Source of the DNA: a virus
Reading direction: 5' to 3' (one strand)
IMG/VR virus record: IMGVR_UViG_3300035667_000005
Location: 1 to 44,517 of that record
DNA length: 44,517 nucleotides
A program made the translations under genes and the position numbers. Within the stretch, counting starts at the first letter, position 1. Each line of letters opens with the position of its first letter. The notes below the pieces were generated by a model. The model was not told where the DNA came from, made no database searches, and worked only from the letters and a program-made list of their open reading frames with translations. Below are positions 551 through 37,336 of this stretch, one piece after another.

Positions 551-669
551 TGGTGAGTCGCGACCCACGAGATCCAAAATCCCGTGTTCAGTCCGATGAA
601 TCCCATGATGATGTAGAGCACGATCCAGATGTCTGTAAGGCGTTTAGCGATTTTGTCTTCCGAGATCAT
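547..669 (-). CDS. 40-residue membrane protein, probably leaderless
   Basis: Starts at CAT 667-669 on the plus strand and ends with TGA overlapping the next ATG. Residues 1-13 are charged; about residues 14-27 (DIWIVLYIIMGFIG) form a membrane segment, continuing to a W/F-rich end. No ribosome-binding site is present. A reverse-strand TATTGT box (677-682) lies 7 nt before the ATG, the spacing expected for leaderless mRNA. The palindrome 668-681 covers this start. It is likely co-expressed with the exported protein at 50-550. Function unknown. Confidence 0.7.
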   Translation of the reverse strand: MISEDKIAKRLTDIWIVLYIIMGFIGLNTGFWISWVATHQ

Positions 670-682
670 TATGTCCACAATA
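653..682. promoter_or_regulatory. Divergent promoter with palindromic operator, site 1
   Basis: ATTATG-TC-CACAAT lies at 668-681, a 14-bp near-palindrome of the family found at nine other promoters here. Leftward, TATTGT (677-682) sits 7 nt from the ATG at 669. Rightward, TTGTCT (653-658), a 17-bp spacer and CACAAT (676-681) could serve the gene at 702. Binding at the palindrome would block both. Confidence 0.6.
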
Positions 683-701
683 TCAAGGATCAGAAACTTC
701 T

Positions 702-1181
702 ATGGCTCTATTCAACCTGGCGATCTCAAAAGAAGAGTCTCGCGAATCTACGGTCTTCGGAACCCTTCCCACCGCCGACTTGATCAAAGAAGTCGTCGTA
801 GGCGAAGAGGGCCTCGTCCGAATCGGCTATTCCGCTCGCTTCAAATCCAGCGTCTCGGCGGCAGGTAAGGCCGCCGTCTTCCTCGGAGTCAACCAGCTTA
901 AGCTCTTCACGACCGAATCGAAAGCCGTAGCGGCTTCGACGGTAGGCCTGGGCTTTCGGAGCCTCTCTTCAGGCTCAAACGCAGGGCTGGTCACCTACGC
1001 ATCCGGGGACGCCGTGGGAGCTGATGCAACCACCGGGCAGCTTCTCTCCACGAGCTTGGATGGAGGCATGGCCGAACTTTGGCTCGCAGCAGGGACCTAC
1101 GACATCTCGGTCCAATACCGCGCGACAGAAGGCAAAGTGACGGCGAAGGAAAGACGGATCTGGGTTGAGACCCCGGAATAG
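702..1181 (+). CDS. Tail appendage / receptor-binding beta protein, paralogue of 1267-1899
   Basis: 159 residues, rich in G, A, V, S and T, with alternating hydrophobic patterns typical of beta-sandwich virion appendages. Residues 17-70 and the last 35 align with the next gene: FGTLPTAD against FGTLTTAD, GLVRIGY against GLIVIGY, AGTYDISVQ against AGTYNISVQ. The end motif GTYxISVQ(Y/F)(R/K)A(T/A)EGKV is nearly identical, so the two arose by tandem duplication. It follows the nozzle-like tail gene on the circle, and its neighbours look like fibre tips. A role in host binding is inferred; no enzyme motif is seen. Confidence 0.7.
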   Translation: MALFNLAISKEESRESTVFGTLPTADLIKEVVVGEEGLVRIGYSARFKSSVSAAGKAAVFLGVNQLKLFTTESKAVAASTVGLGFRSLSSGSNAGLVTYASGDAVGADATTGQLLSTSLDGGMAELWLAAGTYDISVQYRATEGKVTAKERRIWVETPE

Positions 1182-1266
1182 GAACATCTCGGTATGCAGA
1201 GTACTGCCTTGTTCGCTAGGTTGAGCAGGTTGTGTTCAAATCTAAAGAAAGACTGACGAAGACCTA

Positions 1267-2801: not shown

Positions 2802-3359
2802 ATGCCCTCTAACGCAAAGGAACCGATGAGCAGACGAGCGATGATTCTCCAAGGACTGGGAAGGGGCAGAGGAACAGAAGCCTCTGGCGGCAGGCGTAAA
2901 CAGATCAAGGAAAGCCTCGCCGGCACTCGCAACCTCCCCTCCTTGCAACGCAAGGGCGGTGCGGGTAACGAAGGGCCGCTCTCGGCCAACCCCTATCCGA
3001 ATCGGCCGATGCCACGTGGAAACCCCGGGGTGCAGGGCCAGAAGATCGGACAGGGCGTTCCCAATGAGCGCTTCAAGGTTGCGGGAGTTGGAGGACAGCG
3101 CACGGGCGTTGGCCAGAACTCTCAGCCCGGCCTCGGCCCGCAACTCTCCAATCGAGTCAAGAGCGGAGCCATCGACCAGGGTCAAGCTCGCAAAGTAGCC
3201 CAGCAACGCCGCATGCTCCAGAAAGCCTTCGGCTCAGACTGGCGTACTCAGGTCTTCGGGAAAGGCGGGGCGAAAGGGATCGCTGGCCCCTTCTCCCCAG
3301 CGCAGGTCAGGGCTAAGCGTAGTGCTGGCCTAGAACGCGCTAAACGGAAGCTTTACTAA
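2802..3359 (+). CDS. Basic, low-complexity virion-associated protein
   Basis: 185 residues, rich in G, R, K, Q and N, with no predicted globular core in the first 130 residues. The last 60 residues are more helical. The start follows the previous TAA directly. Composition and position, just before coiled-coil and giant internal proteins, suggest a DNA-associated or ejected virion protein. Function not recognised. Confidence 0.6.
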   Translation: MPSNAKEPMSRRAMILQGLGRGRGTEASGGRRKQIKESLAGTRNLPSLQRKGGAGNEGPLSANPYPNRPMPRGNPGVQGQKIGQGVPNERFKVAGVGGQRTGVGQNSQPGLGPQLSNRVKSGAIDQGQARKVAQQRRMLQKAFGSDWRTQVFGKGGAKGIAGPFSPAQVRAKRSAGLERAKRKLY

Positions 3360-3365: not shown

Positions 3366-4133
3366 ATGGCTCGCCCCCGCCGAGCGGTTATACGCGCAGC
3401 CGTAGCTTCAAATCGCCCGAGGCAACCCCGTCTTAGCGCGGGCGTGTCACAGAGCCAAAGTGCCACCGCAAACACAGGGGTTTCCCGTAGAACCGCTGCT
3501 AAGCCCTCTGCGGGCTTGAATCGTGGGGGAGGGGTACAGGGAGGGGCAGGCGCTCCCAGCCCGTCTACGGGTCTCCCACAAAGCTCTACGGCTATGCCCT
3601 GGGATTCTCAGGCAACGCTTGAATCAGCGGGGGGCTACCGCAACGCGGAAGACAAACTCGCAGGACTGCGCGGCAACTGGGACGCGGAACAGCGCTCCAT
3701 CGGCCTAGGCGCTGGTTACGAAAACAACCCCTACTCCCAGGCCTCCCTGCTCGTACGGCAGAAAGAAATCAACACGAGAGGGATCAACCAGCGCCCGGGA
3801 CAGCTCTACTCGGGGGCCACGATCAACCATCTCGGTCAGGCCGAACGAGGCTACAACGAAGGCTACGCGCATCTCCAGGAAGGCTACGAGGCGCGTGGCG
3901 CTCAGGTCCAGCGTGAAGAACTGGCTACCCAGCACGAAGTTCAGCAGCAGCAGGAAGAAGCCCAACTGGCGGCTGTCGAAAGGGCTAGGGAAGAAGCGCC
4001 TGAACCCGCGCCCCTGGCTGCGTCTGGCGGTACCAACTACGGGGCCAAGGGCTACAAGGGCCAAGCGCCGAAGGGGAAGGGCGCTGGCACGATCAAACCT
4101 TGGAACCCTCCACCTAAGAAGGGGAAGAAGTGA
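3366..4133 (+). CDS. Coiled-coil internal virion protein candidate
   Basis: 255 residues. The N-terminal 90 are basic and disordered (S, A, R, G). Residues about 95-160 contain a NPYSQASLL-type segment like those in ejected podovirus proteins. Residues 160-215 form a long E/Q/A-rich coiled coil, and the tail is lysine-rich with repeated KG. It sits among other basic helical proteins before the 1,417-residue internal protein. The assignment as a DNA-ejection-complex member is inference. Confidence 0.55.
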   Translation: MARPRRAVIRAAVASNRPRQPRLSAGVSQSQSATANTGVSRRTAAKPSAGLNRGGGVQGGAGAPSPSTGLPQSSTAMPWDSQATLESAGGYRNAEDKLAGLRGNWDAEQRSIGLGAGYENNPYSQASLLVRQKEINTRGINQRPGQLYSGATINHLGQAERGYNEGYAHLQEGYEARGAQVQREELATQHEVQQQQEEAQLAAVERAREEAPEPAPLAASGGTNYGAKGYKGQAPKGKGAGTIKPWNPPPKKGKK

Positions 4134-5556: not shown

Positions 5557-8500
5557 GTGCCCCTTTCCACCGGAACCTACCAACGCAAAGCGCAGAAGAC
5601 GCAGCGGAAGATCAAGCGCCCTACGCATGTAGCTGTGCCATTCGCCCCTACGCCGAAGGGGAAGGCGGCAGAACGCGCTGCAACGTCGGCGGCCCCTACT
5701 GCAACTACATCGCCGTTGGCCGTTCCTTCGCTGCCTAAGGCTATTGCGACGAAGAAACGGCAGCTTCATAGGGAAACGCAACGTAAGGTCAAACGCCTGC
5801 GCGCTCTCGACACGCTTGAGCGTAAGACCCGAACGCAGCACCGTGCCGAAGGGGAGCCGAGCACGATCTTGCGACAAGCCAGCACGCATGGAACCTTCCC
5901 CCCCGCCGTAGCGAAGCTGAAACACCCAAGCGCGTACAAACGCGCCGAGAAGATTGCTCTAGCCAAACTTGCCACGAAAGAAAATCTAGGCGAACCGGAA
6001 GACATCACTCACGCCATAGAAGCCGCCTCCCTCGCAACTGGAACAGGGGCGGTAGTCAAGGGCGTTGCTAAGGGAATCGAGGAGGTTGGGCTTAAGACCT
6101 TCGCTTCGAAGGGAACCAGCGCGGCGGAGAGCGCCGCAACGCGTGCAGCTAAGAGCGCCCGCTCCTACCCAGCCAGGAAGGTAGCCAAAGTCAAGGCGAC
6201 TCCTGCTAGGGTCAGAAGTGCTCCCAAGCGCGCGCGACGGGCAGTCGCGACTCAACAGGGACGCCGGGCTGCTGCGCAGTCAACCGCACGTTCGGCCCGG
6301 CGTCATCCTGTACGCTCTGGGTATGGGGCAGCGGCTATTAGTCCCGTCCCGCTTCCGGGGTCTGCCGATAAGCGGGCCAGGGCTTTCGCAGAGGGAAGCG
6401 CTAGCGCTCTTGTCCAGCATCCCGCCGAAACTCTGGAGACAACTGGACGATCTCTCGCCGGGGCAATTACTGGTCCTGCGGCGCTACTTGGGGCAACGGC
6501 TTCGTCAATAAAGCACGGCACTCCTGAGCCACTAGTACGCACGGCGAAGGAGGAGGCTCAGGGCGTAGCCCATATTGCCTCTCAGGCGTTCTCTGGAGAC
6601 GTTAAGAAGGCTGAAGAAGCAGCGCGCAAGGAAGGCTCCCTGGCGCTTGCTACTCCTCTCCCCGCCCTCACCCGCCTCAAAGGCTACGAGCGTGTTCGTG
6701 GTCGGGTGCGAAGGACCGCCAACGAGGCACGACGCAAAGTCGCCTCGCGCGGTGACACCCTAAACAAACGAGTTCGCCATTCCCCAGAGGGAGCTGAGCC
6801 ACACGTCTCCGGTCACGCTGAGCGCAAAGCGCAGCGCAAGAAGACAGCGCTGATCAAGCAGCGGATCGACAATCCGCAGCGGATTGCGAGAGAGCATCAC
6901 GAGGCCAGCATGGCCCACGCCGCAGCGCATCTTCCCGACGAGGCGCACAAAGCGATGCAGGTTCTAGCGGAGTATGGAGCCAGAGATCCGCGCCATATCT
7001 CCGATCTGCGCCACCTAGGTCCCGGCGACAAACAGCTTCACGAGGCTCTCGACTACCTCGAAAAGCATCCGGAGGTTTGGCAGCACAAAGCCACGCAGGG
7101 AGTGCTGGCGGCGACGCAACGTGCAGCCGAGTCTGCGCCCGCTGCGGTAGTCGGTAAGGGCGAGAGAGCACGTCTCCTCCCTCAAGGCGATCTCTTTGGC
7201 CACACGCGCCCAGAGGAGATGCTGACGCTCAAAGCCGAGAAGCTGAGCGGCGAGAAGACCCGACAAGGCGCTTGGGACAAACTGGCTGCCGACGACCGCC
7301 GCATGAATGAGCTACGCAAGGAAGGCCGCAAACTCTTCAATCAGGCCGAGGTTCTGAAGGGCGCGGATCGTGATCGCGTCCTAAGCCAAGGTCGTGCCGT
7401 CTTCGCTCAGGTGCGCCAGCAATTCAAGCTGAACAAAGCGCTCTACCAAGAGATCAAAGACTTCACGTACCCTGAGCGCAACATCGACCAGAGCAAACTC
7501 GCGCCTTACAACGATGAGATGCGTGATCGTTACAAAGAGCGTGTTGAAGGCTCTCGTAAGGCTGCGGGCTATGCACCGGCCATCTACACCCACCATGCCC
7601 CCCTGGAGCAACGTGGTTCTGGGCTGGAGGGAACGCCGGGCCAGCGCCCTGCCACGGTTGAGCACATGCGCCAAGGCTATCTAGCGCTGGAAGACAATCT
7701 AGACCGCTCATTCGAGGGCTTGGTCAGAGGCGTCGCGCATCTTCCCCGCCAACGTGAGGCTGCCCGCCAGTTCATGCGCGCTGTCCCGGAGGAGTTCAAG
7801 ACGCCGTTTAAACTCGACGGTAAGGAGCGCTACATCATCCGGGATTCGAGGGACTGGAAAGCAATCACGACTCGCAAGACCAAGGAGAACCCCAACGGTG
7901 GCCAGGTAGATCCGAAACGCTACGGGCGCCTTGCCTTGCGCGAGTTCAACTCTGCGCTCAAAGACCCCTTCATGAGCGAGGCTGAGCGGACTTCGACCCT
8001 CAAGCGCATTCTTGACGAAGCGGCCGAGGGAAAGGTCAAAGGCCACGAACCCTCTCTGCTCGTACCGCGCGAGGTAATCGTGGAGGCCAGAGCGCAGACT
8101 TCTCCCAAGCATCACGAGTTCACCGAAGTCGCCAACGCCGTCAACCGAGGCGCGGTCAGGACTCTGCTCGGCACCAACCCCGCCTGGTTCATCGCCCAGC
8201 TGCCCGCCGTGGCCATACCGGCGATCCTGACCAACCCGAAACTGCTCAACCCTGTCCACGTAGGTTCGATCTACAAGGACATCCTCAAGCAGCGCAAGAA
8301 CAACCCCGAGGCAGCGTTGGCCATGGAGGGCGCGGCAGGAGCACAGTCGATCTCAAGCGCCGCCCTGCGTACGCCTCTCGATATGCAGGAGGCCCTCACG
8401 CCGGTCGAGTGGGCAAGAGGCGCGAAAGCGCTTACGCGAGGCAAGCCCGCTCGTACGGCTCTTTCCTTTGCGAAGCTGGAAATGCTGGGAAAATGGAACG

Positions 8501-9810
8501 CCAAATTCGAGGGCGAGTTGCGCCAGGTCGTCTACGCGATGAAGGCTGACAAGCAGTTCCGCGCTTGGCACAAAGGCGTTACCGGGATGTTCGATATGCA
8601 GGCCGAGCTATCTCAGCGCTTTCGCCATCAACCCCGCGGGAAGCTCTGGGACTGGCTGAAGAGCGACCCCGAGGGGAAGCGTTGGAAAGCTAAATTCGAA
8701 GACCACATGGACTCTTCGATGGGCAACTGGACCGCCTTCACCCGCTACGAGCGCGCCTTCGCCCCACTCGCGATCTTCTATGGCTTCTTGCGCTACTCGC
8801 TGCGTTGGGCAGCGTGGGCTTTCCCGCGAGACCATCCGGTTATGGCGACGGCCGCCTATATGCTGGCTCAGGCTAACGCCAATCAGATCGACAAGCTGAC
8901 GGGAGAAGGGCTCCATGAAGCAGGACTCCAGAAGACCGATGCTCCAGCAAAGTCCGCGAATCCCCTCGCCTACGCTCTCCCGGTTTATGAGGGAGCGAGC
9001 GGAAAACAATCAGTCCTTCCGGGAGGCTCTCGAATCTCGCCCGGCCAATCCTCGGTCACACAGGCTCTCAGTTCCGGTAATCCTGCCGCGATCCTAAGCT
9101 CCGCCAATCCTGCGATCAGCGCGACGATTACGGGCCTGACTGGGGTCGAAGCCTTCACCGGGCAAAAGACCTCGAACCCGAAGGGCTGGGCCGCGCTTGA
9201 ACAGATCACCGGCTTGCCCTACCCGCTACGTGCCAAGCTTCCCGGTCTCGGAGGAGAGGGGCTGGGCGAAAAGGCCCTTGAGGCATTGGGAGGACCCGGA
9301 CGCTCAGTCGCTTCTCAGGCCTATGAAAAGCTCGACAAGAATAAGAACGTGCGCTCGGGAATAATGCCCCTGCTCCCGCAGACGGGGCGCGAGTTCGGAG
9401 CTACTGAAGCCCTCTCGAAGTCCTTCGACCTGAAGTACGGCAAAGGGAAGATCCCCGGTCCCTTCGATAACGCTCTCGTTCAGGATCTCCTTTATGGAAA
9501 CAACGGCAAGCCTAAGCCGCAGCTACTCAAGAAAGTCCTTAAGGAAATTCATAAGTCAGAAGCAGCCTCAGCACTGGTCAAAGGTGCGGAGAGTCCCTTC
9601 TACCCAGATAGCGGCGGAGACTTCAGCCCTACCCAGAAGCGCTTGCTCGAAGCCGTGGAGAACGCCTGGCAGACAGGGCCACGGTCCAAGAAGAAAAAGA
9701 AGGGCAACGCCTACACGGAAGCCTTGGAAGAAAGCTCAGGGGGTAATCCCTATCTGGAAGCCCTCAAATCCCCGAGCGGGGGCAACGCCTATCTGAAAGC
9801 GCTGGAATGA
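5557..9810 (+). CDS. Giant internal virion / DNA-ejection protein (1,417 aa)
   Basis: GTG start with GAGAGG 7 nt upstream. Residues 1-110 are highly basic; 140-330 are Ala/Lys/Arg-rich; 400-870 are long charged helices. A hydrophobic stretch near 877-892 (AWFIAQLPAVAIPAIL) and an aromatic segment near 1075-1090 (YGFLRYSLRWAAWAFP) could contact membrane. The C-terminus carries three copies of GN(A/P)Y(T/L)(E/K)AL. Size, basicity and helix content fit the large ejected core protein of short-tailed phages. The W/F-rich segment also recalls the large polyvalent proteins of some phages. No catalytic motif such as a transglycosylase Glu was found. Its start (MPLSTGTY) resembles that of the NlpC/P60 protein at 27220 (MPLRTGNTY). 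Confidence 0.65.
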   Translation: MPLSTGTYQRKAQKTQRKIKRPTHVAVPFAPTPKGKAAERAATSAAPTATTSPLAVPSLPKAIATKKRQLHRETQRKVKRLRALDTLERKTRTQHRAEGEPSTILRQASTHGTFPPAVAKLKHPSAYKRAEKIALAKLATKENLGEPEDITHAIEAASLATGTGAVVKGVAKGIEEVGLKTFASKGTSAAESAATRAAKSARSYPARKVAKVKATPARVRSAPKRARRAVATQQGRRAAAQSTARSARRHPVRSGYGAAAISPVPLPGSADKRARAFAEGSASALVQHPAETLETTGRSLAGAITGPAALLGATASSIKHGTPEPLVRTAKEEAQGVAHIASQAFSGDVKKAEEAARKEGSLALATPLPALTRLKGYERVRGRVRRTANEARRKVASRGDTLNKRVRHSPEGAEPHVSGHAERKAQRKKTALIKQRIDNPQRIAREHHEASMAHAAAHLPDEAHKAMQVLAEYGARDPRHISDLRHLGPGDKQLHEALDYLEKHPEVWQHKATQGVLAATQRAAESAPAAVVGKGERARLLPQGDLFGHTRPEEMLTLKAEKLSGEKTRQGAWDKLAADDRRMNELRKEGRKLFNQAEVLKGADRDRVLSQGRAVFAQVRQQFKLNKALYQEIKDFTYPERNIDQSKLAPYNDEMRDRYKERVEGSRKAAGYAPAIYTHHAPLEQRGSGLEGTPGQRPATVEHMRQGYLALEDNLDRSFEGLVRGVAHLPRQREAARQFMRAVPEEFKTPFKLDGKERYIIRDSRDWKAITTRKTKENPNGGQVDPKRYGRLALREFNSALKDPFMSEAERTSTLKRILDEAAEGKVKGHEPSLLVPREVIVEARAQTSPKHHEFTEVANAVNRGAVRTLLGTNPAWFIAQLPAVAIPAILTNPKLLNPVHVGSIYKDILKQRKNNPEAALAMEGAAGAQSISSAALRTPLDMQEALTPVEWARGAKALTRGKPARTALSFAKLEMLGKWNAKFEGELRQVVYAMKADKQFRAWHKGVTGMFDMQAELSQRFRHQPRGKLWDWLKSDPEGKRWKAKFEDHMDSSMGNWTAFTRYERAFAPLAIFYGFLRYSLRWAAWAFPRDHPVMATAAYMLAQANANQIDKLTGEGLHEAGLQKTDAPAKSANPLAYALPVYEGASGKQSVLPGGSRISPGQSSVTQALSSGNPAAILSSANPAISATITGLTGVEAFTGQKTSNPKGWAALEQITGLPYPLRAKLPGLGGEGLGEKALEALGGPGRSVASQAYEKLDKNKNVRSGIMPLLPQTGREFGATEALSKSFDLKYGKGKIPGPFDNALVQDLLYGNNGKPKPQLLKKVLKEIHKSEAASALVKGAESPFYPDSGGDFSPTQKRLLEAVENAWQTGPRSKKKKKGNAYTEALEESSGGNPYLEALKSPSGGNAYLKALE

Positions 9811-11819: not shown

Positions 11820-12327
11820 CGGTCAACGCTTCGGTCGCCTTGTTGCGCTACACCGAATAGAGAACTCCCTGCAAGGGAAGGCCCGCTGGCGTTGCCTATG
11901 TGACTGTGAAGGCATTAAGGATGTCACATCTAGCGGGTTGAACGCCGGAGACACGCTTTCCTGTGGGTGCCTCAACAAAGAGAAGAGAGCCTCGCGAGCC
12001 CGCGCCCTTGGCTATGCGAGCAGGCTGCACGGCCACAGCGTGGAAGCTACTCGTACCTACAACACATGGCTTTGTATGAGGGCTCGTTGTAGCCGCCCCA
12101 CCGATGAGCACTTTCCTGCTTACGGGGGTCGCGGAATTCAAGTATGCAACCGATGGCAAAAGAGCTTTCAGGCTTTTCTCGAAGATATGGGGGAGCGGCC
12201 TGAAGGACGAACGTTGGATCGCGCCGACAACGAGGGGCACTATGAACCCGGCAACTGTCGTTGGGCTACGCCGAAGGAGCAAGCCAACAATCGACGGCCT
12301 CGCACAAAAGCTTCCTTCGAGGGGTAG
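11800..12327 (+). CDS. HNH/AP2-type homing-endonuclease-like protein
   Basis: 175 residues. The N-terminus ([14 protein letters not shown]) and zinc ribbon (CLCDC then SCGCL) are followed by [26 protein letters not shown] and [19 protein letters not shown] near the C-terminus. This order is characteristic of a widespread phage family related to HNH/AP2 homing endonucleases. The ATG overlaps the endolysin 3' end by 20 bp. It separates the endolysin from the holin candidate, as expected of a mobile intruder. Whether it still cuts is unknown. Confidence 0.8.
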
Positions 12328-12341
12328 GATGTGGCCATGAA
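12325..12341 (+). promoter_or_regulatory. Leaderless-type promoter with operator-like site 2
   Basis: TAGGAT (12325-12330) lies 6 nt before the ATG at 12337, with no ribosome-binding site. GATGTG-GC-CATGAA (12328-12341) overlaps box and start codon and matches the operator family less closely (GC centre). It could allow the lysis genes to be expressed independently of upstream read-through. Confidence 0.5.
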
Positions 12342-12456
12342 TAAGCTAAGAGCCTTGAAGGCTCATCAACGTTGGCTGGAAATGTTCAATCAACCACTCG
12401 TGACCATGCGCCAGGAACTCTTCGGCCTGATCCGCGACGAAAAGACAGGGGACTGA
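12337..12456 (+). CDS. 39-aa helical protein of the lysis region
   Basis: The ATG is 6 nt after a TAGGAT box, so it is probably leaderless. The protein is a single amphipathic helix (KLRALKAHQRWLEMFNQPL then RQELFGLIRDE). The stop overlaps the next ATG (TGATG). Function unknown. Confidence 0.6.
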   Translation: MNKLRALKAHQRWLEMFNQPLVTMRQELFGLIRDEKTGD

Positions 12457-12703: not shown

Positions 12704-13008
12704 GCAAAGCCCTTGGGATCCAGAGGGAGCGGCAAGTCCGGGAGCGGCTTGAGTCTGAAGGCTGGGCTGTTGTACGGGCCGCCGGCTCTCTCGGTTGTAT
12801 CGATCTAGTCGCAGGGAAGGCTGGAGAGATAACGCTTGCGGTTGAGGTCAAAGCCGACTCCAAGAAGTTCGGTCCCTTCAATAACTTCGGCCCAGATAAG
12901 CGGGCTGGACTGATCGCCTTCGCCTATGCAGCCGGGTGGAAACCGGTCCTCGCCTGGTGGCCCCCGCATGGAGAGCTGAAATGGCTGCCTCCCTCGGAGT
13001 GGCCTTGA
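12700..13008 (+). CDS. Hjc-like PD-(D/E)xK nuclease (possible Holliday-junction resolvase)
   Basis: 102 residues from a TTG start coupled to the previous stop (TTGA). Motifs: E10 in the first helix (IQRERQVRERL), D35 in CIDLVA, and E49-V-K51 in LAVEVKAD, matching the Glu...Asp...ExK core of small archaeal-type resolvases. The longer ATG start at 12589 overlaps the holin and adds residues without recognisable features. Such enzymes resolve branched DNA before packaging. It is the last gene of the rightward late block. Confidence 0.7.
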   Translation: MSKALGIQRERQVRERLESEGWAVVRAAGSLGCIDLVAGKAGEITLAVEVKADSKKFGPFNNFGPDKRAGLIAFAYAAGWKPVLAWWPPHGELKWLPPSEWP

Positions 13009-13032
13009 CATATGGCCACATTCTGATACGGT
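13005..13032 (+). promoter_or_regulatory. Strong promoter with operator in the spacer, site 3
   Basis: TTGACA (13005-13010), a 16-bp spacer and TACGGT (13027-13032, TANNNT). The layout matches the promoter at 14645 (TTGACA-16-TATGGT). CATATG-GC-CACATT (13009-13022) occupies the spacer, so bound protein would exclude polymerase. No gene starts before the terminator about 70 nt past the expected start point. Confidence 0.65.
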
Positions 13033-13038
13033 GGCCTA

Positions 13039-13137
13039 GGTCCTGTGACTGGGATCCTATCTCACTAGTTCTGTAGTTACGGTTGTTTTGCTTGATGGAT
13101 GAGGCGTTGTGCTCGAGAGGGCGCAGCGCCTCTTTTT
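13039..13137 (+). ncRNA. Candidate ~100-nt phage small RNA
   Basis: Bounded by the promoter at 13005-13032 (predicted start near 13039) and the strong hairpin plus T-run at 13101-13137. No convincing ORF lies inside: the longest start, ATG 13095, reads only 15 codons and runs through the terminator. No known RNA family was recognised. The gap between the nuclease stop (13008) and the converging gene end (13142) contains nothing else. Confidence 0.5.
13101..13137 (+). terminator. Strong rho-independent terminator
   Basis: A 12-bp stem, 13101-13112 with 13121-13132, including two G-U pairs, an 8-nt loop and then TTTTT (13133-13137). It would end both the late rightward transcript and the candidate small RNA. 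The reverse strand lacks a T-run, so it acts rightward. Confidence 0.85.
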
Positions 13138-13141
13138 CGTT

Positions 13142-14644: not shown

Positions 14645-14672
14645 TTGACAGTTCCTACGGATTCTGTATGGT
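14645..14672 (+). promoter_or_regulatory. Strong sigma-70-type early promoter
   Basis: TTGACA (14645-14650), 16-bp spacer, TATGGT (14667-14672). Predicted start near 14679; the leader has GGGAGAG before ATG 14709. No palindromic operator lies in the spacer, unlike 13005-13032, so this promoter may escape the operator network. Confidence 0.75.
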
Positions 14673-21215: not shown

Positions 21216-21216
21216 T

Positions 21217-25966: not shown

Positions 25967-26102
25967 CTCCGGGCTTCTCAAAAAGGCGCTGGTTCAGGAG
26001 GAAGCTAAGGGACGCGATAAGAACACGACCGAAGAAGACAGGCGCATCGCCATCTACAAGGCCAGGGCTATTCGCTACTACCTGCAATTCCTGGGGATGT
26101 GA
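25959..26102 (+). CDS. Basic 47-aa protein
   Basis: ATG 25959 overlaps the end of the RHH gene. Lys/Arg-rich helix (EEDRRIAIYKARAIRYYLQF). Its last codons contain the left half of operator site 6. Function unknown. Confidence 0.5.
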   Translation: MASSGLLKKALVQEEAKGRDKNTTEEDRRIAIYKARAIRYYLQFLGM

Positions 26103-26118
26103 CCACATCTGCTAGTCT
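26096..26118 (+). promoter_or_regulatory. Operator site 6 (perfect palindrome) and leaderless-type promoter
   Basis: GATGTG-AC-CACATC (26096-26109) is a perfect 6-2-6 palindrome of the operator family. TAGTCT (26113-26118) follows, 6 nt before ATG 26125. Binding would cover the spacer region. Confidence 0.55.
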
Positions 26119-26124: not shown

Positions 26125-26226
26125 ATGAGCGCGATCTTGATCGGACTTGCAGTAGCCGGACTCGTCGCCTTGGTCTTCCTCGGCCGCAAGCTTTACTTGC
26201 AGGCGAAGGAAACCCTTCGTGGGTAG
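26125..26226 (+). CDS. 33-aa single-pass membrane protein
   Basis: Residues 3-20 (AILIGLAVAGLVALVFLG) are a membrane helix; the rest is a basic cytoplasmic tail. Probably leaderless and under operator site 6. The stop lies inside the next gene, which starts at GTG 26219. Confidence 0.6.
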   Translation: MSAILIGLAVAGLVALVFLGRKLYLQAKETLRG

Positions 26227-26572
26227 CGACCGCACACAGACGCTCTCGGTGGAAGGCACCACTGAGCTCGAAGAGGTCCTCGAAGCAGCACTGCGCGGCC
26301 TCTTCGAGCTAGTCGCCAAGTACAGCCCCGAAGAGTCGCCGAACGGTGAACGCTACCTGCCTGCCAATGGCGGCCACAGTATTGAGCGTGAGCTGCGAAT
26401 TGCCAAGTCAGCCCTGGACGACTCAGCCATAGAACGGAGCGCGAGCGAGCCTGCGCTGAGCAATGAGGACCGCGCGGGCCTAGAGGAGATAGCCAAATTC
26501 CTCAACACGCACTACCGGCCGGTTGAGGCTGACTTCCTCCGTGACCTCGCCTCTCGGGAGCTTCGTGGCTAA
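26219..26572 (+). CDS. Acidic helical protein, 117 aa
   Basis: GTG start overlapping the membrane peptide. E-rich helices (TTELEEVLEAALRGLFELVA; EDRAGLEEIAKFLNTHYRPV). No family recognised. Overlaps the next GTG by 8 bp. Confidence 0.55.
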   Translation: MGSDRTQTLSVEGTTELEEVLEAALRGLFELVAKYSPEESPNGERYLPANGGHSIERELRIAKSALDDSAIERSASEPALSNEDRAGLEEIAKFLNTHYRPVEADFLRDLASRELRG

Positions 26573-26894
26573 GCCCCTTCGGAACGTTCGCTTCATCTTG
26601 CCTCTCGTCGTTTGGGAGAAGAACCAGCTCGACCGGTGGGCGAGGGAGGCCAATCTCAATACTTCCGACTACGTGCGTGAAAAGCTCGGGTTGACGAAGG
26701 CCAGGAAGACTCGCAACCAGCGAGACGAGAAGCTTGAGAACCCCGAAGGCGATCCTGAGAACGCCGTAGACGTGGAGGAACTGGCTCGAAGGATTTATGA
26801 GTCGGATGATCTGACGATGCCGGGTCCCTTGTACGCTGGGACGATGGCCGAAGCTCGCCGTGAGGCGAGGCGTAGGCTGACGGGGGCAGGATGA
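26565..26894 (+). CDS. Possible RHH-type DNA-binding protein, 109 aa
   Basis: GTG 26565 is chosen over 26523. VRFILPLVVWEKNQLDRWAR followed by NTSDYVREKLGL resembles strand-helix-turn-helix of ribbon-helix-helix proteins, as in the gene at 25505. The rest is charged. ATGA-coupled to the next gene. Confidence 0.5.
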   Translation: MAKPLRNVRFILPLVVWEKNQLDRWAREANLNTSDYVREKLGLTKARKTRNQRDEKLENPEGDPENAVDVEELARRIYESDDLTMPGPLYAGTMAEARREARRRLTGAG

Positions 26895-29105: not shown

Positions 29106-29341
29106 TCCACTTCCCATTCCATAGATCCTGGGTTGACATAGCCGTGATTCCCTCCGGCCTCTTGGTCTGAGCAATACAGACCGCCGTGGTAGCGCTCGGG
29201 GATCTTGTAGCAGTTGGCCTTATGCCAATCGGGCTTCGGTTTGTGATAGCCGGACCAGCCGAAGGGATCTGCCACTGCGATCCAGAGGGCTGCGACGCAG
29301 AGCAGGCCCAAGATCACTTCAAGGTTGAGAAGGCGTCTCAT
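29102..29341 (-). CDS. Exported/membrane-anchored protein, 79 aa
   Basis: Start MRRLLNLEVILGLLCVAALW at 29341: a signal peptide or anchor (about residues 7-22) with a positive start. The mature part is small, rich in Y, H, G, W and Cys (NCYKIPERYHGGLYCSD), suggesting a disulphide outside the membrane. Longer frame to 29635 rejected because it overlaps the first gene of this unit. An envelope function is inferred. Confidence 0.65.
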   Translation of the reverse strand: MRRLLNLEVILGLLCVAALWIAVADPFGWSGYHKPKPDWHKANCYKIPERYHGGLYCSDQEAGGNHGYVNPGSMEWEVE

Positions 29342-29673
29342 TAGCCCATCCAAGTCCGGAAGTTGCCGATCATGACGGGACGACGCTGTTTTGGGTTCCG
29401 GGTCTCGGCAAGCTCGGCAATAGCGTCGGTGCCTCCCATCGCAATGACCTCGCGCAGCCTCTCCTGCGCTTTGTTGTAAGCGAGGATTTCCTGAGTGATG
29501 ACATTTTGCTTCGTCTGCGACTTCTTCTCCCAGCCCTCTGGTGGCACGATGGCCTCTTCTAGGAAGTGTTTGACGCATTTCTCTAGCGAGATGCGTTTTG
29601 ACTTCGGGACTCTGGCACCTCCTGCCGCTTCGCATTCCTCCAGTGTGGTGCCGTGCTTACGTTCCTCGCTCAC
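29341..29673 (-). CDS. Unknown protein, 110 aa, first gene of reverse-strand unit
   Basis: GTG start with GGGAGAGAGG upstream. Helical, basic (ISLEKCVKHFLEEAIVPPEG, TQEILAYNKAQERLREVIAM). TAATG coupling to the exported protein. Transcribed away from the terminase gene from a promoter overlapping operator site 7. Confidence 0.6.
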   Translation of the reverse strand: MSEERKHGTTLEECEAAGGARVPKSKRISLEKCVKHFLEEAIVPPEGWEKKSQTKQNVITQEILAYNKAQERLREVIAMGGTDAIAELAETRNPKQRRPVMIGNFRTWMG

Positions 29674-29692: not shown

Positions 29693-29707
29693 ATTATGGA
29701 CATAATA
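29693..29707. promoter_or_regulatory. Operator site 7 (perfect palindrome) between TerL and the reverse unit
   Basis: ATTATG-GA-CATAAT (29693-29706) is the best palindrome of the set. Reverse-strand TATTAT (complement of 29702-29707) is a TANNNT box for the leftward gene, with a leader of about 22 nt. It ends 3 nt before the ATG of the terminase gene, which has no ribosome-binding site. One bound dimer could therefore control the reverse unit and the onset of packaging genes. Confidence 0.65.
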
Positions 29708-29709: not shown

Positions 29710-31305
29710 ATGAATCAGACTACCGCCCCACGGATCGAAGCAACCGATCCATCCGCTCTCAGCGACCCTGTCGTCCAGCAGGAAATCGCTCAGATATCGC
29801 AGGCAATTGAAGCCAATCCGCTCTGGGGCTATAGGCCGCACCCGAAGCAACTGGCCTTCCACTCAGCCAAAGTGCGACTGCGGGTCTACTTCGGCGGGTC
29901 GAGAAGCGGAAAGACTGCGGGTGGGGTCGTAGACGATGTGATCCAGTGCATCGACAAGGAATCGGTGCCGGAGCACCTGAAACGCTTCAAGCGCTTCGAA
30001 CCACCCTGTCGTATCCGAATCGTGGTGCCGGGCTTCGAGCTTCCGCTTAAAGCCATCGAAGAGACGATCCTGCGCTGGTGCCCCAAGTTCGAACTCAAAG
30101 GCGGCTCTTGGGAAGAGGCATGGAACCAGCGCAATCACACGCTCAAGTTCGGCAACGGCTCTTTCATCGAGATCATGTCCTACGAGCAGGACCGGGCCAA
30201 GTTCGGAGGCGTGACCAGAGACCGCATCCACTACGACGAGGAGCCAGACGGCGAGAAGGGCCAGATCATCCGCGAGGAGTGCCAAACACGCCTCATGGAG
30301 GTCAAAGGCTCGGATGAGATCTTTACTTTTACCCCGCTCGAAGGCCTCGGCTGGACCTTCGATGAGTTCGAAGAACAGAAGGGGCCGGAAATCGAAAAGA
30401 ACGTCTGGTTGGACGAGAAGATGCTCGTTGTCAGAGCGTCGGTCAGGGACAACCCGGCGATCCCGGACGAGGAGATCGACCTTCGCCTGGGCCATCTTCC
30501 AGAGCTACGCAGGCGCGCTAGGGAAGATGGAGAGTTCCTGCACCTGGAGGGTCTCGTCTACCCGATGTTCGACAAGGACTTGCATTGCGTCAACGACACC
30601 TGGCTACGCTCAGACGCAGGCAAAGACCACGTTCAGCATCTAGAGCTTCACGAGATCATCGACCCTGGCTACAACACGACGGCGGTTCTCTTCGCAGGCA
30701 TTGATCCTGAAAACCGCTTCTTGATCTACGACGAGCTTTACCTGACCGAAAAAGCCACGATTCCAGAGAACGCAGCGCAGCACATCCGGGAGAAGCGCAA
30801 CGCTTGGGGCTACGGCACCCCCGTAGCCACGCTGATCGACCCTTCCGCTCGCAACCATTCCCTAACCGGGCGCAGAGATCCGAACAGCGACGAAATGACT
30901 CCCGACACGGTGAGGATGGCCTACTACCGCGCCGGTATTCCCACGGTCAAGGCGAATAACGACAAAGAGGGCGGCGTCTTCGAGGTCATGCGTCGCCTTG
31001 AGAATCGCGACAAAGAGGGCGAGCCCGACCCGCTATTGCTCATCGGCGAAAACTGCTCCAGCTTCCTCCGTGAGCTACGGCGCTACCGACTCAAGCCCAA
31101 AGACGATGGCTCCTTCGACGTCGTCAAGCGCGAAGACCACGGACCGGACTGTTTGAGATATCTGTGTAATCACAGACCGTTGAGTAGGCCGAAGGCGATG
31201 AGCATGACTCAGCGCAGGCCGGAACAATGGGACCCTGGTGTCGCGCCTCCGGTGTCTACGAAACCGGCTGCGGAACCCGTAGGACCACTAGGAAGATTCG
31301 CCTAG
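29710..31305 (+). CDS. terL: Terminase large subunit (packaging ATPase/nuclease)
   Basis: 531 residues from ATG 29710. Walker A GGSRSGKT (62-69) follows VYF; Walker B IHYDEE (173-178). A C-terminal RNase H-like nuclease is suggested by IIDPGYNTTAVLF, TLIDPSA and EDHGPDCLRY. It pumps DNA into the prohead through the portal. No Shine-Dalgarno is visible; the palindrome at 29693 abuts the start. The longer frame from 29653 would include the operator and is rejected. Confidence 0.9.
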   Translation: MNQTTAPRIEATDPSALSDPVVQQEIAQISQAIEANPLWGYRPHPKQLAFHSAKVRLRVYFGGSRSGKTAGGVVDDVIQCIDKESVPEHLKRFKRFEPPCRIRIVVPGFELPLKAIEETILRWCPKFELKGGSWEEAWNQRNHTLKFGNGSFIEIMSYEQDRAKFGGVTRDRIHYDEEPDGEKGQIIREECQTRLMEVKGSDEIFTFTPLEGLGWTFDEFEEQKGPEIEKNVWLDEKMLVVRASVRDNPAIPDEEIDLRLGHLPELRRRAREDGEFLHLEGLVYPMFDKDLHCVNDTWLRSDAGKDHVQHLELHEIIDPGYNTTAVLFAGIDPENRFLIYDELYLTEKATIPENAAQHIREKRNAWGYGTPVATLIDPSARNHSLTGRRDPNSDEMTPDTVRMAYYRAGIPTVKANNDKEGGVFEVMRRLENRDKEGEPDPLLLIGENCSSFLRELRRYRLKPKDDGSFDVVKREDHGPDCLRYLCNHRPLSRPKAMSMTQRRPEQWDPGVAPPVSTKPAAEPVGPLGRFA

Positions 31306-31461
31306 CTGCCGCCTGTACTCCTCAGCAAGCGCTTTCCACATGATCGCGTCTGCGCAAAACTTATTGCGTTCGAAGGTTAGGCGCTCCATCGGTCCCGGTC
31401 CTTTCGGACGCGTATAGACGTAGCTTTCGGGTGCCGGAGTTGCTGGTTCGATTCTCTCCAT
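31288..31461 (-). CDS. 57-aa unknown protein, leaderless, reverse-strand insert
   Basis: ATG 31461 (MERIEPATP) lies 8 nt after reverse-strand TAGAGT with no ribosome-binding site; the operator overlaps the start. Later starts would lose conserved-looking residues (YVYTRPKGPGP then KFCADAIMWKALAEEYRRQL). Its 3' end is antisense to the last 18 bp of the terminase gene. A single reverse gene in a forward block is moron-like. Confidence 0.6.
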   Translation of the reverse strand: MERIEPATPAPESYVYTRPKGPGPMERLTFERNKFCADAIMWKALAEEYRRQLGESS

Positions 31462-31475
31462 ATGTCCACACTCTA
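31459..31475 (-). promoter_or_regulatory. Operator site 8 and leaderless-type promoter
   Basis: CATATG-TC-CACACT (31459-31472) overlaps the start codon (complement of 31459-31461), and TAGAGT is the complement of 31470-31475. Bound protein would cover the transcription start. Confidence 0.55.
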
Positions 31476-31487
31476 CCAAAGGACAAC

Positions 31488-31880
31488 ATGCCTCGCTTGA
31501 CCAAAGGACCGCTCCCCTTCTCCCCTCACGCCTGTCTCGTGACTGGATCGGAGGATGGAGAGCTGATCGACTTCGAACGCGACTTCATTGGCATGGACCC
31601 TCGGATTGTCCTGCGCAAAGAGGTCGTGGAAGAGGCAGCCCGCGAGTGCTGCCAGATGGTGCCTCTGCACGAGGTCGAAGAGATGCGCCGCCAAGTCGGT
31701 GAGCTTGGTCAGAAACTAGACGCAGCGCTCTCAGATCTCAATCTCACCAAGGACTTTGAAGCTCAGTTCGGCAAATCCCTAGAAGGCCAAGCAGAGGTAG
31801 TTGTCAATGGCGAGCTGGTCGCTGGCCGATCCTTTGAAATCGAACCCGCCACACCCGCTGGCGAGGAAGGAAGTATCTGA
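31488..31880 (+). CDS. Unknown virion-block protein, 130 aa
   Basis: ATG 31488 with AAAGGA upstream ([13 protein letters not shown]). A central helix ([20 protein letters not shown]) and acidic end. TGATG coupling to the SAP-like gene. May be a minor head or assembly factor; not recognised. Confidence 0.6.
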
Positions 31881-32332
31881 TGCCAACCGTATTCACCTTG
31901 AATATCCAGGACTCAAAGGCCCTGGAGGCTCCCGTGCGCGAGATCTCCGTAGGCGTCGGCTCCGTCCTCGTTACCCGCAAAATCCCGACCGATGAGGATG
32001 GCGGCTACGAGATCGAGAATACGCTTGTGGACAAAGAGAAGGCCTACGACGGCAAAGACACGCCCTCTCTGGCTCTCTACAGCCCCGATGGCGCTCATGT
32101 GACGGTCACGTATGCCTCCGAGTTCCCAATAGTTCAGGAGCCACCGGAGACTTCCTCAGGGGTATCTTCCGAGCCTGCCGCTGATCGCGGCGACACGGGC
32201 GGAGGCTCAGGCGGTTCTTTCGAGTCCCGCACGGTTGAGGAGTTGCACGAGCTGGGCAAGGAGCGCGGCGTCAAAGGCCAGTCCACAATGAACAAGGATG
32301 AGCTAATCGAGGCTCTGAGAGGCCAGAAGTAG
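31880..32332 (+). CDS. Virion-block protein with C-terminal SAP/Rho-N-like domain
   Basis: 150 residues. The N-terminal ~85 are beta-rich ([21 protein letters not shown]). A Gly/Ser/Glu linker ([18 protein letters not shown]) joins a final helix-extended-helix, [15 protein letters not shown]...[10 protein letters not shown], matching SAP/Rho-N motifs that bind nucleic acid. Such tails are frequent in phage head-region proteins. Confidence 0.65.
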
Positions 32333-34287: not shown

Positions 34288-34544
34288 TCCTCCTCTTCGC
34301 TCTCTCCTGGCTCTTCGTTGTCGCAGCCTTGATCCTGGTCATCGTGCATCACGGACAGCGGGAAGACGCTTGGAGCAAGGAGCGCGCCGAACTGATTCAG
34401 CGCATCCAGGCCCCCGAGAGCGCCGTGTTGACTTACGCGCATGGGCAGACGGGACCGCTTCAGCCGGTAGCGCCTATCGCCCTAGACGACGATCAGGCTT
34501 ACGAGAAGCTACGACTGGAGAGGCAGGGTTTGGCTGGGGATTAG
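34284..34544 (+). CDS. Membrane-anchored coiled-coil protein, 86 aa
   Basis: Residues 1-22 (MILLFALSWLFVVAALILVI) are an anchor; 26-48 are helical, followed by a Pro/Asp-rich tail. ATGA-coupled to the tailspike. Topology is like an inner-membrane spanin or exclusion protein, but it is far from the lysis genes. Function unknown. Confidence 0.6.
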   Translation: MILLFALSWLFVVAALILVIVHHGQREDAWSKERAELIQRIQAPESAVLTYAHGQTGPLQPVAPIALDDDQAYEKLRLERQGLAGD

Positions 34545-34750
34545 GCAGCCCGCGTTTCCGTGAACTCAACCGAGGCGATTACGCTTGAGCCAACAGCAAT
34601 TCCCTTCAACCACTCGCGCGAATATTTCATCGACTTGGTTCGAGCGTGAGAATCGGGAAGCTGATGCTCATAGAACCAGGTTCCGTCCTCCGAAAAGAAG
34701 CGTCCTAGCTTTCCATCGCCATAGGTGATCTTGGCCTGATGAATCGTCAT
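34541..34750 (-). CDS. 69-aa unknown protein, reverse-strand insert
   Basis: MTIHQAKITYGDGKLGRFF at 34750, with GAGGAGGA about 8-10 nt upstream. A small mixed alpha/beta protein. Driven by an extended -10 promoter overlapping operator site 9. Its 3' end overlaps the converging gene by 4 bp. Moron-like position. Confidence 0.6.
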   Translation of the reverse strand: MTIHQAKITYGDGKLGRFFSEDGTWFYEHQLPDSHARTKSMKYSREWLKGIAVGSSVIASVEFTETRAA

Positions 34751-34773: not shown

Positions 34774-34793
34774 ATTGTGGACACATTATACCA
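34774..34793. promoter_or_regulatory. Operator site 9 with reverse-strand promoter
   Basis: ATTGTG-GA-CACATT (34774-34787). On the reverse strand TATAAT (complement of 34785-34790) follows TGG, an extended -10; RNA would start near 34778, within the operator. It also lies 18 bp upstream of the portal ATG. Confidence 0.65.
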
Positions 34794-34804: not shown

Positions 34805-36922
34805 ATGGCCGTACTCGACCAGCTTGAGAAAAAGGCAGAACAGGCGCTAGACGCTCTGCGTCCTGCCGCACAGCCGATCCCGAAGGACGTGCAGGAACGG
34901 ATCACGCGCGGCAAATCACGTCTGGAAGAGCTGAAGCCGCAGCGCCGTCTCGCCGTTGAGTTCGCGGATGGTAAGCACTACGGCTACCTGAGTGAAGACG
35001 GCGGCTCCGTCAAACACTTGGCAACGTTGACCTATCTGCTCGGCGGCAAGAAGGAGGACCACCGCGTCAGGCGTTCCCACGACCTGATCGGCCCGATGGT
35101 CCAATCTAAGGTCTCAGCAGCCACGCAGCGTGTCCCCGGCTACGAAGTCAATCCTTCGACCAACGACCCGGAGGACTACACGGCGGCCCAGACCGCCAAA
35201 AAGATCGCCTATGCAGGCTTTGAACTTTGGCGGATAAAGCGAGCCACCCAGAAGCTCGTCTGGAACGCTCTGGTCACCGAAGAGGGCTTCATCATGGCCT
35301 ACTGGGATTCCTCGATAGGTCCCTACGTGGACGTGCAGATGGACCCCGAAGGAGAGCCCGAGCATGTGGGCATAGGCGACGTGCGGATCGGCGTCTGGAA
35401 TGGCCTGGAAGTGATGTGGGAGCCAGGCGTGGACTTCGAGGAGAGCCGCTGGTGGGCGATAGAACACGCGCGGCCTAGGGATCAGGTCGAAGCCGAACCA
35501 GGCTACGTGGGCGGCAAACTCCCAGCCAACGCGGAACTAGAAGGCTCGATGAAGAAAGCTGAGTCTTCGAACCTCTGCATGGTCACCGAGTACCTGGAGC
35601 GCCCTTCGGCCAAGTACCCGCAGGGTCGCAGGCTCTTTTCAGCCGCTGGCAAGCAGATCTTCCCCGAAGAGGGCTATCCGCTAACCGACGCGAAAGGTCA
35701 GGTCGTGGATGAGCCTTGCATCCATCGCCTCGGCTACACGGTCAACCCGGCCTCAGATCGCGATAAGGGCCTCGTCCGCTCGCTGATCGAGAGTATGCGG
35801 ACTTACGACTTCGCTCAGAACAAGATTGCCGAGTTCGCGCAGGAGGGCCTCGTGCCGAAGACCCTTGCGCCCGTTGGGGCTTTTAAGCTTCCAGCCACAG
35901 ACCAACCTGGAGCGCGAGAAGAATACGATCCGACTGTCCTGATGGGCGGCAAAATCGAATTCGCCCCCACGCAGGGGATTCCGGCTGAGCTATTCAAACT
36001 CAAAGAAGAAGCAATGGCCGAGATGCGCTTCGAGGCGCATGACAACGAAGTGCCGTCTCAGGTCTCAGCCAATCAGGCCGTGCAGAGCATCCTCCAGAAG
36101 GACGAAATCGCCTGGGAGGACTTGATTGCCAATCTGGCCGAAACCCACTCTCGCATCATGCGCGATTGCCTCACGCTGGTTCAGCGCCACTTCACCGAGG
36201 ACCGGCTAATGAAGTACCGGGGCCGCACCGGCTGGATGCCGATCGAAGACTTCAAGGGCGCGGACCTTCGCGACCAGACGGATGTACGAGTCCAGCCTGG
36301 CTCTCTTACGCCCTTCACGCGTCAGGCGATAGAGCAGAGAATCCAGAACATCGCCCAGATGTTCCCCGGCTACTTCCCCCCAGAGGTTCTTCTGAGCGCG
36401 ATGAACAACGGCAACGCTGAAGGCCTGCTCGAAGGCTACGAAGAGGACGTAGGCCGGATCAACTACATCATCAACCAGATCCGCGCCGGGACCTTCGAAA
36501 AAATGGGAATGCGCCCTGTCTGGCCTGGAGAGGAAGCAGGCTTCAAACTCAACGTCGAAACCGAAGAACCGGAAATCGGTCCTGACGGACAACCGGTGAT
36601 GGAGACCGAAGTCCCGGCTTGGATGCCCCGACCCGGCGTCGATAACTACAAAGTCTGGTCCTCCGTTCTCGCCAACTGGGCCAAGAGCGATGAATTCGCG
36701 CACCTTGACCCAGAAGCCCAGAAAGCAGCGATGCTGGTCTTCAGCGCGCTACGCGACCTGGAAATGCGAGAGGCGCAGCGCGAACAGGAACTTCAGACGA
36801 ATCAGGCTGAAGAACTCGGCTTGAAGAACGCAGCGGCCCCGCAGAGCAAGCCCATGCCGTCCCTACCGGCCTTGAACGCTGGAGGAGGGTCAAACCCAGC
36901 GGAAGGGCCTCCGGGGGCTTAG
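34805..36922 (+). CDS. Portal protein (705 aa)
   Basis: Large portal of the short-tailed-phage type. The clip/stem/wing order is suggested by an N-terminal helical region, SHDLIGPMVQSKVSAATQRV, conserved-looking WNALVTEEGFIMAYWD, and long stem helices (EAMAEMRFEAHDNEVPSQVS). The C-terminal ~100 residues are E/Q-rich helix and Pro/Gly tail, like the P22 barrel region. It forms the dodecameric DNA gate and docks with TerL. AGAGAGG is the ribosome-binding site. Identification rests on size, order and motifs. Confidence 0.8.
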   Translation: MAVLDQLEKKAEQALDALRPAAQPIPKDVQERITRGKSRLEELKPQRRLAVEFADGKHYGYLSEDGGSVKHLATLTYLLGGKKEDHRVRRSHDLIGPMVQSKVSAATQRVPGYEVNPSTNDPEDYTAAQTAKKIAYAGFELWRIKRATQKLVWNALVTEEGFIMAYWDSSIGPYVDVQMDPEGEPEHVGIGDVRIGVWNGLEVMWEPGVDFEESRWWAIEHARPRDQVEAEPGYVGGKLPANAELEGSMKKAESSNLCMVTEYLERPSAKYPQGRRLFSAAGKQIFPEEGYPLTDAKGQVVDEPCIHRLGYTVNPASDRDKGLVRSLIESMRTYDFAQNKIAEFAQEGLVPKTLAPVGAFKLPATDQPGAREEYDPTVLMGGKIEFAPTQGIPAELFKLKEEAMAEMRFEAHDNEVPSQVSANQAVQSILQKDEIAWEDLIANLAETHSRIMRDCLTLVQRHFTEDRLMKYRGRTGWMPIEDFKGADLRDQTDVRVQPGSLTPFTRQAIEQRIQNIAQMFPGYFPPEVLLSAMNNGNAEGLLEGYEEDVGRINYIINQIRAGTFEKMGMRPVWPGEEAGFKLNVETEEPEIGPDGQPVMETEVPAWMPRPGVDNYKVWSSVLANWAKSDEFAHLDPEAQKAAMLVFSALRDLEMREAQREQELQTNQAEELGLKNAAAPQSKPMPSLPALNAGGGSNPAEGPPGA

Positions 36923-36957
36923 AACGCGCGGTACGGCCTTGCGAAGAACCGCTGTGT

Positions 36958-37302
36958 TTACGGTTCGAGGGCCTTAGCCGCGATCTTGCGCATCCGCGCA
37001 GCGTCGTCCCAGGAGGTGCCGAGGAGAAGGAGTGTTTCAAGGGCCATGCGGTACCGGTCGATAACCGATCCCGAGTCTCCCCGAATCTCAGATAGCCCTT
37101 GGCGAGTGATGGCCCAGGTTCCCGGGTCGCCAGGAAAATGCGCTACGAGATCGTGTTTGCGCAGCATGGAGAGCGCGCCTTGGACCTTCGGGACACCAGT
37201 GTCCATCCAGTCGGCTACTGCCGCGACCGTGTAGGCATGCTCAGCACGTTCTGCCAGCCACTCCAAGATTGCTCGCGCTTGCGCGCTCAAAGCTTCGTCC
37301 AC
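36958..37302 (-). CDS. Winged-helix DNA-binding protein, reverse-strand insert
   Basis: 114 residues from GTG with GGAGA upstream. Residues 3-65 form a winged helix: SAQARAILEWLAERA, VAAVADWMDT, VPKVQGALSMLRKHDLVAHF, then GTWAITRQGL as the wing. No ligand or metal site is obvious. It sits alone on the reverse strand between portal and scaffold, with operator site 10 over its start site, so autoregulation and control of the other nine sites are plausible. A candidate for the master repressor; not proven. Confidence 0.75.
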   Translation of the reverse strand: MDEALSAQARAILEWLAERAEHAYTVAAVADWMDTGVPKVQGALSMLRKHDLVAHFPGDPGTWAITRQGLSEIRGDSGSVIDRYRMALETLLLLGTSWDDAARMRKIAAKALEP

Positions 37303-37318
37303 GCTGTCTCCTCACTTA

Positions 37319-37336
37319 GATGTGGACACAATCTTA
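37319..37336 (-). promoter_or_regulatory. Operator site 10 and promoter of the winged-helix gene
   Basis: GATGTG-GA-CACAAT (37319-37332); reverse TAAGAT (complement of 37331-37336) is the -10, with start near 37324 inside the operator, and a 22-nt leader holding GAGGAGA. Confidence 0.65.

Follow-up and report, generated by a model that had tools for sequence, protein, structure and literature searches.

The question raised by this locus is why one short palindrome should be repeated at ten places in a single phage genome. The stretch of DNA analysed here, hereafter called the window, is the whole 44.5-kb genome (44,517 nucleotides) of the IMG/VR record IMGVR_UViG_3300035667_000005, an uncultured soil virus infecting bacteria. 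It carries a 127-bp direct end repeat and a gene set comprising P22-like portal, terminase, head, SU10-type adaptor and spike genes. The comparisons described below suggest that the palindrome is probably the operator of one dimeric protein, built into the sigma-70-type promoters of a phage clade, and that one repressor would silence the whole set. The putative operators of the window are listed here with the promoter elements and genes found at each of them.

668-681: operator ATTATGTCCACAAT; extended -10 TATTGT at 677-682 (- strand); leftward, 40-amino-acid leaderless-type gene at about 547-669 (- strand)
12328-12341: operator GATGTGGCCATGAA, over the start point; -10 TAGGAT at 12325-12330 (+ strand); 39-amino-acid gene 12337-12456 (+ strand), also present in genome G006
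13009-13022: operator CATATGGCCACATT, in the spacer of TTGACA (13005-13010)-16-TACGGT (13027-13032); rightward, candidate small RNA; site present in 6/7 genomes
13829-13842: operator ATTATGTCCATGAA, over the start point; -10 TAGATT at 13826-13831 (+ strand); leaderless-type gene 13838-14023 (+ strand), in 7/7 genomes
21220-21233: operator CTTATGTCCACGTC, in the spacer of TTGCCT (21216-21221)-18-TAGGAT (21240-21245); rightward, gene 21253-21558 followed by a TerS-like gene, 21555-22085
21244-21257: second, operator-like site at the start point of the 21220 promoter
26096-26109: operator GATGTGACCACATC, upstream of -10 TAGTCT at 26113-26118; rightward, leaderless-type gene 26125-26226; orthologous sites in 7/7 genomes
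29693-29706: operator ATTATGGACATAAT; extended -10 TATTAT at 29702-29707 (- strand); leftward gene 29341-29673 (- strand)
31459-31472: operator CATATGTCCACACT; extended -10 TAGAGT at 31470-31475 (- strand); leftward leaderless-type gene 31288-31461 (- strand)
34774-34787: operator ATTGTGGACACATT; extended -10 TGGTATAAT, hexamer at 34785-34790 (- strand); leftward gene 34541-34750 (- strand), inserted upstream of the portal gene
37319-37332: operator GATGTGGACACAAT; extended -10 TAAGAT at 37331-37336 (- strand); leftward gene 36958-37302 (- strand)

A palindrome restricted to one phage clade

Relatives were drawn from IMG/VR through the portal, TerL and MCP proteins. The set of seven genomes used throughout consists of the window (G000) and six long contigs (G001 to G006), all scanned in full, whose TerL proteins are 67-87% identical to that of the window. 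Further away, a megablast search of window bases 1-24000 against about 50,000 phage records produced no near match, and the portal gave weak matches only, chiefly to phages of actinobacteria.

The ten 14-bp near-palindromes reported by an earlier, sequence-only reading are all present where it placed them, with two perfect 6-2-6 palindromes (29693 and 26096) and a TC/GA centre in seven of the ten. Its consensus, WTTRTGNNCAYAAW, is too strict, since it is matched exactly only at 668 and 29693, the other sites showing one to four mismatches. The part that is truly invariant is TG-KM-CA within RTGKMCAY, the AT flanks being softer, and the operator form can be written WTTRTGKMCAYAAW.

A symmetric weight matrix derived from a hand-picked seed of 44 sites detects, at a score of at least 12, 60 sites in the seven genomes against 1.3 expected from a third-order Markov model, a count that includes orthologous sites of shared ancestry, so that the probabilities quoted overstate independence. 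Column-permuted matrices yielded 2.2 matches, and 11 at most. As many of the sites scored also served to train the matrix, the independent evidence resides in the conserved positions in relatives, in a null control read backwards and in the placement of the sites. The core pattern WTRTGKMCAYAW occurs in 2-7 copies in each of the six long relatives, and the same pattern read backwards has zero matches across the seven genomes. Nine of the ten window sites are recovered by the matrix; the tenth, 26096, is given a low score on account of its AC centre, but its orthologues in six relatives are strong sites. One extra site is found at 21244, sharing its -10 with 21220. The sequence-only reading had made its proposal depend on two points, and neither refuted it: the matches are not spread through genes, each of the ten sites overlapping a gene by at most 7 of its 14 bases although 85% of the genome is coding by the gene map, and the sites keep their positions in relatives whose TerL is about 80% identical.

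The motif is also carried by the smaller near relatives L007, L019, L020, L022 and L063. It is absent from loci with 28-48% TerL identity, except for two isolated weak matches, and was not found in 12 whole distant records; it is accordingly restricted to one clade. A stricter promoter-operator pattern, searched in IMG/VR, returned this clade and five contigs resembling chance or lone sites. The open literature searched did not contain the site sequence and returned only unrelated papers. In distant relatives a dyad count revealed CCTCGAGG in G010-G012, scattered and apparently within coding sequence; this count is so strict that in most near genomes it misses even the known motif, and an absence there means little. 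A likeness to the DnaA box (TTGTCCACA) was dropped, as it fits only one centre type.

A separate feature of the palindrome concerns its positions 4 and 11, which are anticorrelated over all genomes (A/C 28, G/T 17, G/C 10, A/T 6; Fisher p=5e-4). In most operators, one half is thus TATG and the other TGTG.

The palindrome is locked to the -10 element

The placement of the sites at promoters, judged by eye in the sequence-only reading, can be evaluated on 62 sites (61 matrix sites at a score of at least 11 plus 26096) in both orientations, with real palindromes grafted at random places as a control and with predicted start points. A TANNNT -10 at the expected spacing is found at 59 of the 62 sites, against 32% in the control, and an extended -10 (TGN-TANNNT) abuts the palindrome at 30 of them, against 1.6%. 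The placement read by eye is thereby borne out, and the sites are putative promoter operators. The direction of transcription, on the other hand, had to be amended, half of the window sites facing leftward and not towards the late genes of the + strand.

This orientation is dictated by the bases lying outside the dyad. At the leftward sites of the late region, A12 is present in 30/30 and T16 in 29/30, followed by A/C and, at 20-22, by A; at the other sites the same two bases are found in 10/28 and 12/28 cases (Fisher p=3e-8 for A12). These conserved bases are the reverse complement of TGN-TANNNT on the minus strand, as in the extended -10 TGGTATAAT at 34774. Two geometries can be distinguished. 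In the first, the -10 runs into the first bases of the palindrome and the dyad spans about -9 to +5, the start codon often falling within the palindrome or a few bases past it and leaving a short-leader or leaderless messenger. In the second, the palindrome occupies the spacer between -35 and -10, in promoters of the type TTGACA-16, TTGACC-17 or TTGCCT-18 (13009, G001 10480, G004 38164 and 21220) or with a weak -35 as in the 26096 type.

The first reading to be tried was that of late promoters for TerL, portal and scaffold with a -10 in the right arm. It was rejected in favour of minus-strand promoters on the position of the TerL ATG, on the C bias at the would-be -12 and on a CT-rich tract that is the Shine-Dalgarno of the minus-strand gene. 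A phage single-subunit RNA polymerase was also looked for: the seven genomes had no PF00940 match, in a weak test for which control genomes were negative as well, and no PHROG of this type was found on the large genes tested.

Leftward genes come and go as cassettes

The five leftward sites of the window (668, 29693, 31459, 34774 and 37319) serve small genes of the opposite strand, not terminase, portal or scaffold; at 29693, for example, TerL starts at 29710 on the strand opposite to the leftward gene. Over the seven genomes, 28 of 29 leftward open reading frames (40-204 amino acids) have the best codon score of the six frames. Their products share almost no homology between genomes, with the exception of one pair (G000 31459 and G002 2788), and the + strand genes that flank them are conserved.

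The lengths of the gaps between these flanking genes reveal single-genome insertions exactly at the sites. Between 2802-3359 and 3366-4133, the gap measures 6 bp in six of the genomes, and in G003, where a site is present, it reaches 210 bp; between MCP and the next gene, it is about 60 bp versus 242 bp in G003; between 31431-31880 and 31880-32332, it is -8 to 2 bp versus 165 bp in G002; a further gap is around -4 bp versus 177 bp in G004. Upstream of the portal gene, the cassette and its site are present in G000, G003, G005, G006, L009 and L012, and there is none in G001, L005, L006 and L011. The leftward genes therefore come and go between conserved late genes as compact cassettes, each composed of an open reading frame and its promoter/operator. 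These insertions, together with the unrelated genes downstream of the sites, are the most independent evidence.

In two relatives (G002 at about 830 and G004 at about 8625), a degenerate second copy of the operator and of its Shine-Dalgarno tract precedes the TerL site by about 200 bp. These second copies look like remnants of a duplication or of an earlier cassette.

Rightward targets

The rightward sites are 12328, 13009, 13829, 21220 and 26096. Their conserved targets are the 61-68-amino-acid gene at 13838 (7/7; 61 amino acids in the window), which is followed by a further open reading frame, a candidate RNA, the gene before TerS, and the lysis/ribbon-helix-helix operon (7/7). The candidate RNA is the following feature.

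13038-13139 (+ strand): candidate small RNA of about 100 nt, ending at a strong terminator at 13101-13132; fold z -3.7

It had no Rfam match, and its GTTACGGTTG block is kept in six genomes. Ahead of the small-terminase-like gene, at 21220-21257, a single -10 (TAGGAT) is flanked by two operator-like sites, the first occupying the spacer and the second the start point.

A strong early promoter at 14645-14672 (TTGACA-16-TATGGT) has the operator in two of the seven genomes and lacks it in the other five. The stretch 14645-14708, which combines this promoter with a leader carrying CAACGTAGGGAGAGAACC, is kept in all seven, and a near-identical Shine-Dalgarno leader (CAACGAAGGGAGAGAAC) stands ahead of the leftward gene beside TerL in G003. 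Two other + strand genes deserve a mention. The product of 14016-14540 resembles a single-stranded-DNA-binding protein (glycine-rich, with an acidic C-terminus ending in IPF), PHROGs and Pfam giving no identification; 5557-9810 encodes a 1417-amino-acid protein without Pfam or PHROG match that is kept in distant relatives also.

A proposed model of repression

With respect to the promoter, the palindrome has three placements, in the spacer, on the -10 or at the start point, and all three are occluding; from this anatomy we infer a repressor, whose binding would block RNA polymerase. Host polymerase would read the strong cassette promoters early, and an early protein, at best guess the one encoded at 15133-15534, would then shut them off. 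Such a shut-off would also clear the transcription that opposes the late region.

Several observations weigh against this model. The seed of the matrix was picked by hand and the start points are predicted; the reader of the sites could be a host protein; the benefit of an early repressor acting on the lysis/late-side promoter 26096 is not obvious, and its effect there could differ. No promoter dedicated to TerL, portal or scaffold was recognised, so that transcription of these genes must come by read-through from upstream. Lastly, most of the extended -10 promoters have a weak -35, leaving room for an activator.

Which protein reads the sites

Three proteins of the window can be considered as the binder.

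15133-15534 (+ strand): winged-helix protein (ArsR/MarR-like), read from the early promoter 14645-14672
26568-26894 (+ strand): ribbon-helix-helix-like (NikA-like) protein, E=0.022, below the Pfam cut-off
13142-13792 (- strand): CxxC..CxxC protein with a C-terminal HTH_31-like region

The first matches HTH_20 (E=3.8e-6), and its structure model (H-H-H-H-E-E-H, pLDDT 77-89 in the winged-helix region) has a winged-helix fold, the best PDB matches found by Foldseek being ArsR/MarR types. It is present in 7/7 near genomes and absent from five distant genomes searched whole, with one match to its domain in another distant record; the SYH residues of the recognition helix and the RGA residues of the wing are invariant. 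It co-occurs with the site and is our preferred, if tentative, candidate. The second lies in the operon behind operator 26096 in 7/7 genomes, and its presumed DNA-facing strand differs in G003; it is a doubtful binder. The third, put forward by the sequence-only reading, is less probable still, as its helix is variable and its homologues occur in phages devoid of the site. The other protein suggested by that reading, 36958-37302, is weakly winged-helix-like (Rrf2 E=0.0027, below the Pfam cut-off); with no homologue in the six relatives, it is excluded as a common regulator and can practically be disregarded as a binder.

The variation of these proteins also bears on the possibility that the phage exploits a global repressor of its host. 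None of the phage genes shows an exclusive link with the sites, and the recognition regions of the candidates vary between relatives when the site does not. The motif is nevertheless absent from distant relatives that may infect similar soil bacteria, and the early winged-helix protein accompanies it in every near genome and is missing from the five distant ones; a host regulator is the most serious competitor of a phage repressor, though an unlikely one.

A temperate phage whose immunity repressor silences or roadblocks the prophage, as in cluster A mycobacteriophages, would also have some ten sites between genes all over its genome. Four of the present sites (12328, 13009, 13829 and 29693) directly follow a stop codon, and a divergent regulator-like gene adjoins 13829. 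However, no integrase was seen among the larger genes of the window, in the course of work that included no dedicated search, and two scans of about 85,000 species genomes, in which a host was sought through prophages, found no TerL relative. The strong early promoter is devoid of the operator in most genomes, and, unlike the asymmetric stoperators, the sites have dyad symmetry and keep fixed registers with respect to promoters. Lysogeny operators are for these reasons rather improbable.

Less credible again is a phage activator that substitutes for the missing -35 and turns on TerL, portal and scaffold. These + strand late genes do begin 17-95 bp from sites, without a sigma-70 -35. The directional bases, however, fit a -10 on the minus strand and not on the plus strand, the TerL ATG would fall inside the promoter region, the portal gene persists in relatives with no site upstream of it, and most placements overlap the -10 or +1, which is unusual for activators; this leaves the activator very unlikely. 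A hairpin in the mRNA, or a signal for translation start comparable to the SAS of cluster K mycobacteriophages, suggested by the start codons that overlap or follow the palindrome in many genes, is the least probable of all, since the mRNA would not include the many sites that precede the predicted start point or occupy the promoter spacer, and since arm positions 4/11 are pairable in RNA at only 53%.

Under the preferred reading of a phage repressor, a broader interpretation seems quite possible, if slightly short of probable. Unrelated, exchangeable accessory genes, perhaps devoted to host takeover or counter-defence, would plug into a common socket, the extended -10/operator module, against the direction of late transcription, and the single repressor would silence the set and remove collisions. 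The shared module may also provide the homology for swapping such genes. Small variable phage genes are a frequent seat of host-takeover and counter-defence functions and are hard to recognise by sequence. In this clade, the shared promoter/operator flags them from DNA alone, with 29 leftward genes identified across the seven genomes, and leads to the prediction that all of them are regulated together. It is, moreover, a concrete example on which to ask how phages stop newly acquired genes, inserted against the late programme, from disturbing it.

Comparison with known systems

The stoperators of cluster A mycobacteriophages (L5, Bxb1) are 13-bp asymmetric sites that mostly share one orientation; in these temperate phages they are the targets of a monomeric immunity repressor (PMC6550527, PMC9283540). 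The present sites are similar in being many copies of a short, lineage-specific sequence placed between genes genome-wide, with a putative binding protein. They differ in being a 14-bp dyad locked to the -10, in both orientations and with no sign of lysogeny among the larger genes and the genomes scanned; the asymmetry and single orientation that define stoperators are thus not found here.

Cluster K mycobacteriophages have a 13-bp asymmetric SAS, GGGATAGGAGCCC, that overlaps the Shine-Dalgarno, and an ESAS with 17-bp inverted-repeat arms and a variable spacer, which precedes co-directional non-structural genes and was suggested to bind proteins (PMC3203893). Both resemble the window sites as repeated elements just upstream of the starts of genes of different families. 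Sequence and architecture are different, however, the window sites being a compact 6-2-6 dyad placed on promoters, half of which oppose the late genes.

The PeSL elements of T4-type phages, reportedly described by Arbiol et al. in 2010, are said to be mobile regulatory cassettes that pair an early promoter with a stem-loop and flank variable open reading frames. They are comparable in that a standard regulatory module travels with small variable phage genes, and different in that the module here combines a dyad operator with an extended -10 promoter. The T4 PeSL cassettes are cited in PMC4177764. No stem-loop was seen at the four cassette slots aligned, which does not amount to a systematic search, and no terminator in the cassettes examined. 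Lambdoid morons are likewise extra genes between conserved genes, with their own promoter and usually a terminator. They are not known to share a single genome-wide operator, unlike the inserted genes with their own promoters described here, for which one operator recurs genome-wide. The site resembles stoperators, SAS/ESAS and T4 PeSL cassettes in arrangement and is likely a member of none of them; what it presents are the features of an operator family, a dyad repeated above chance whose copies overlap promoter elements.

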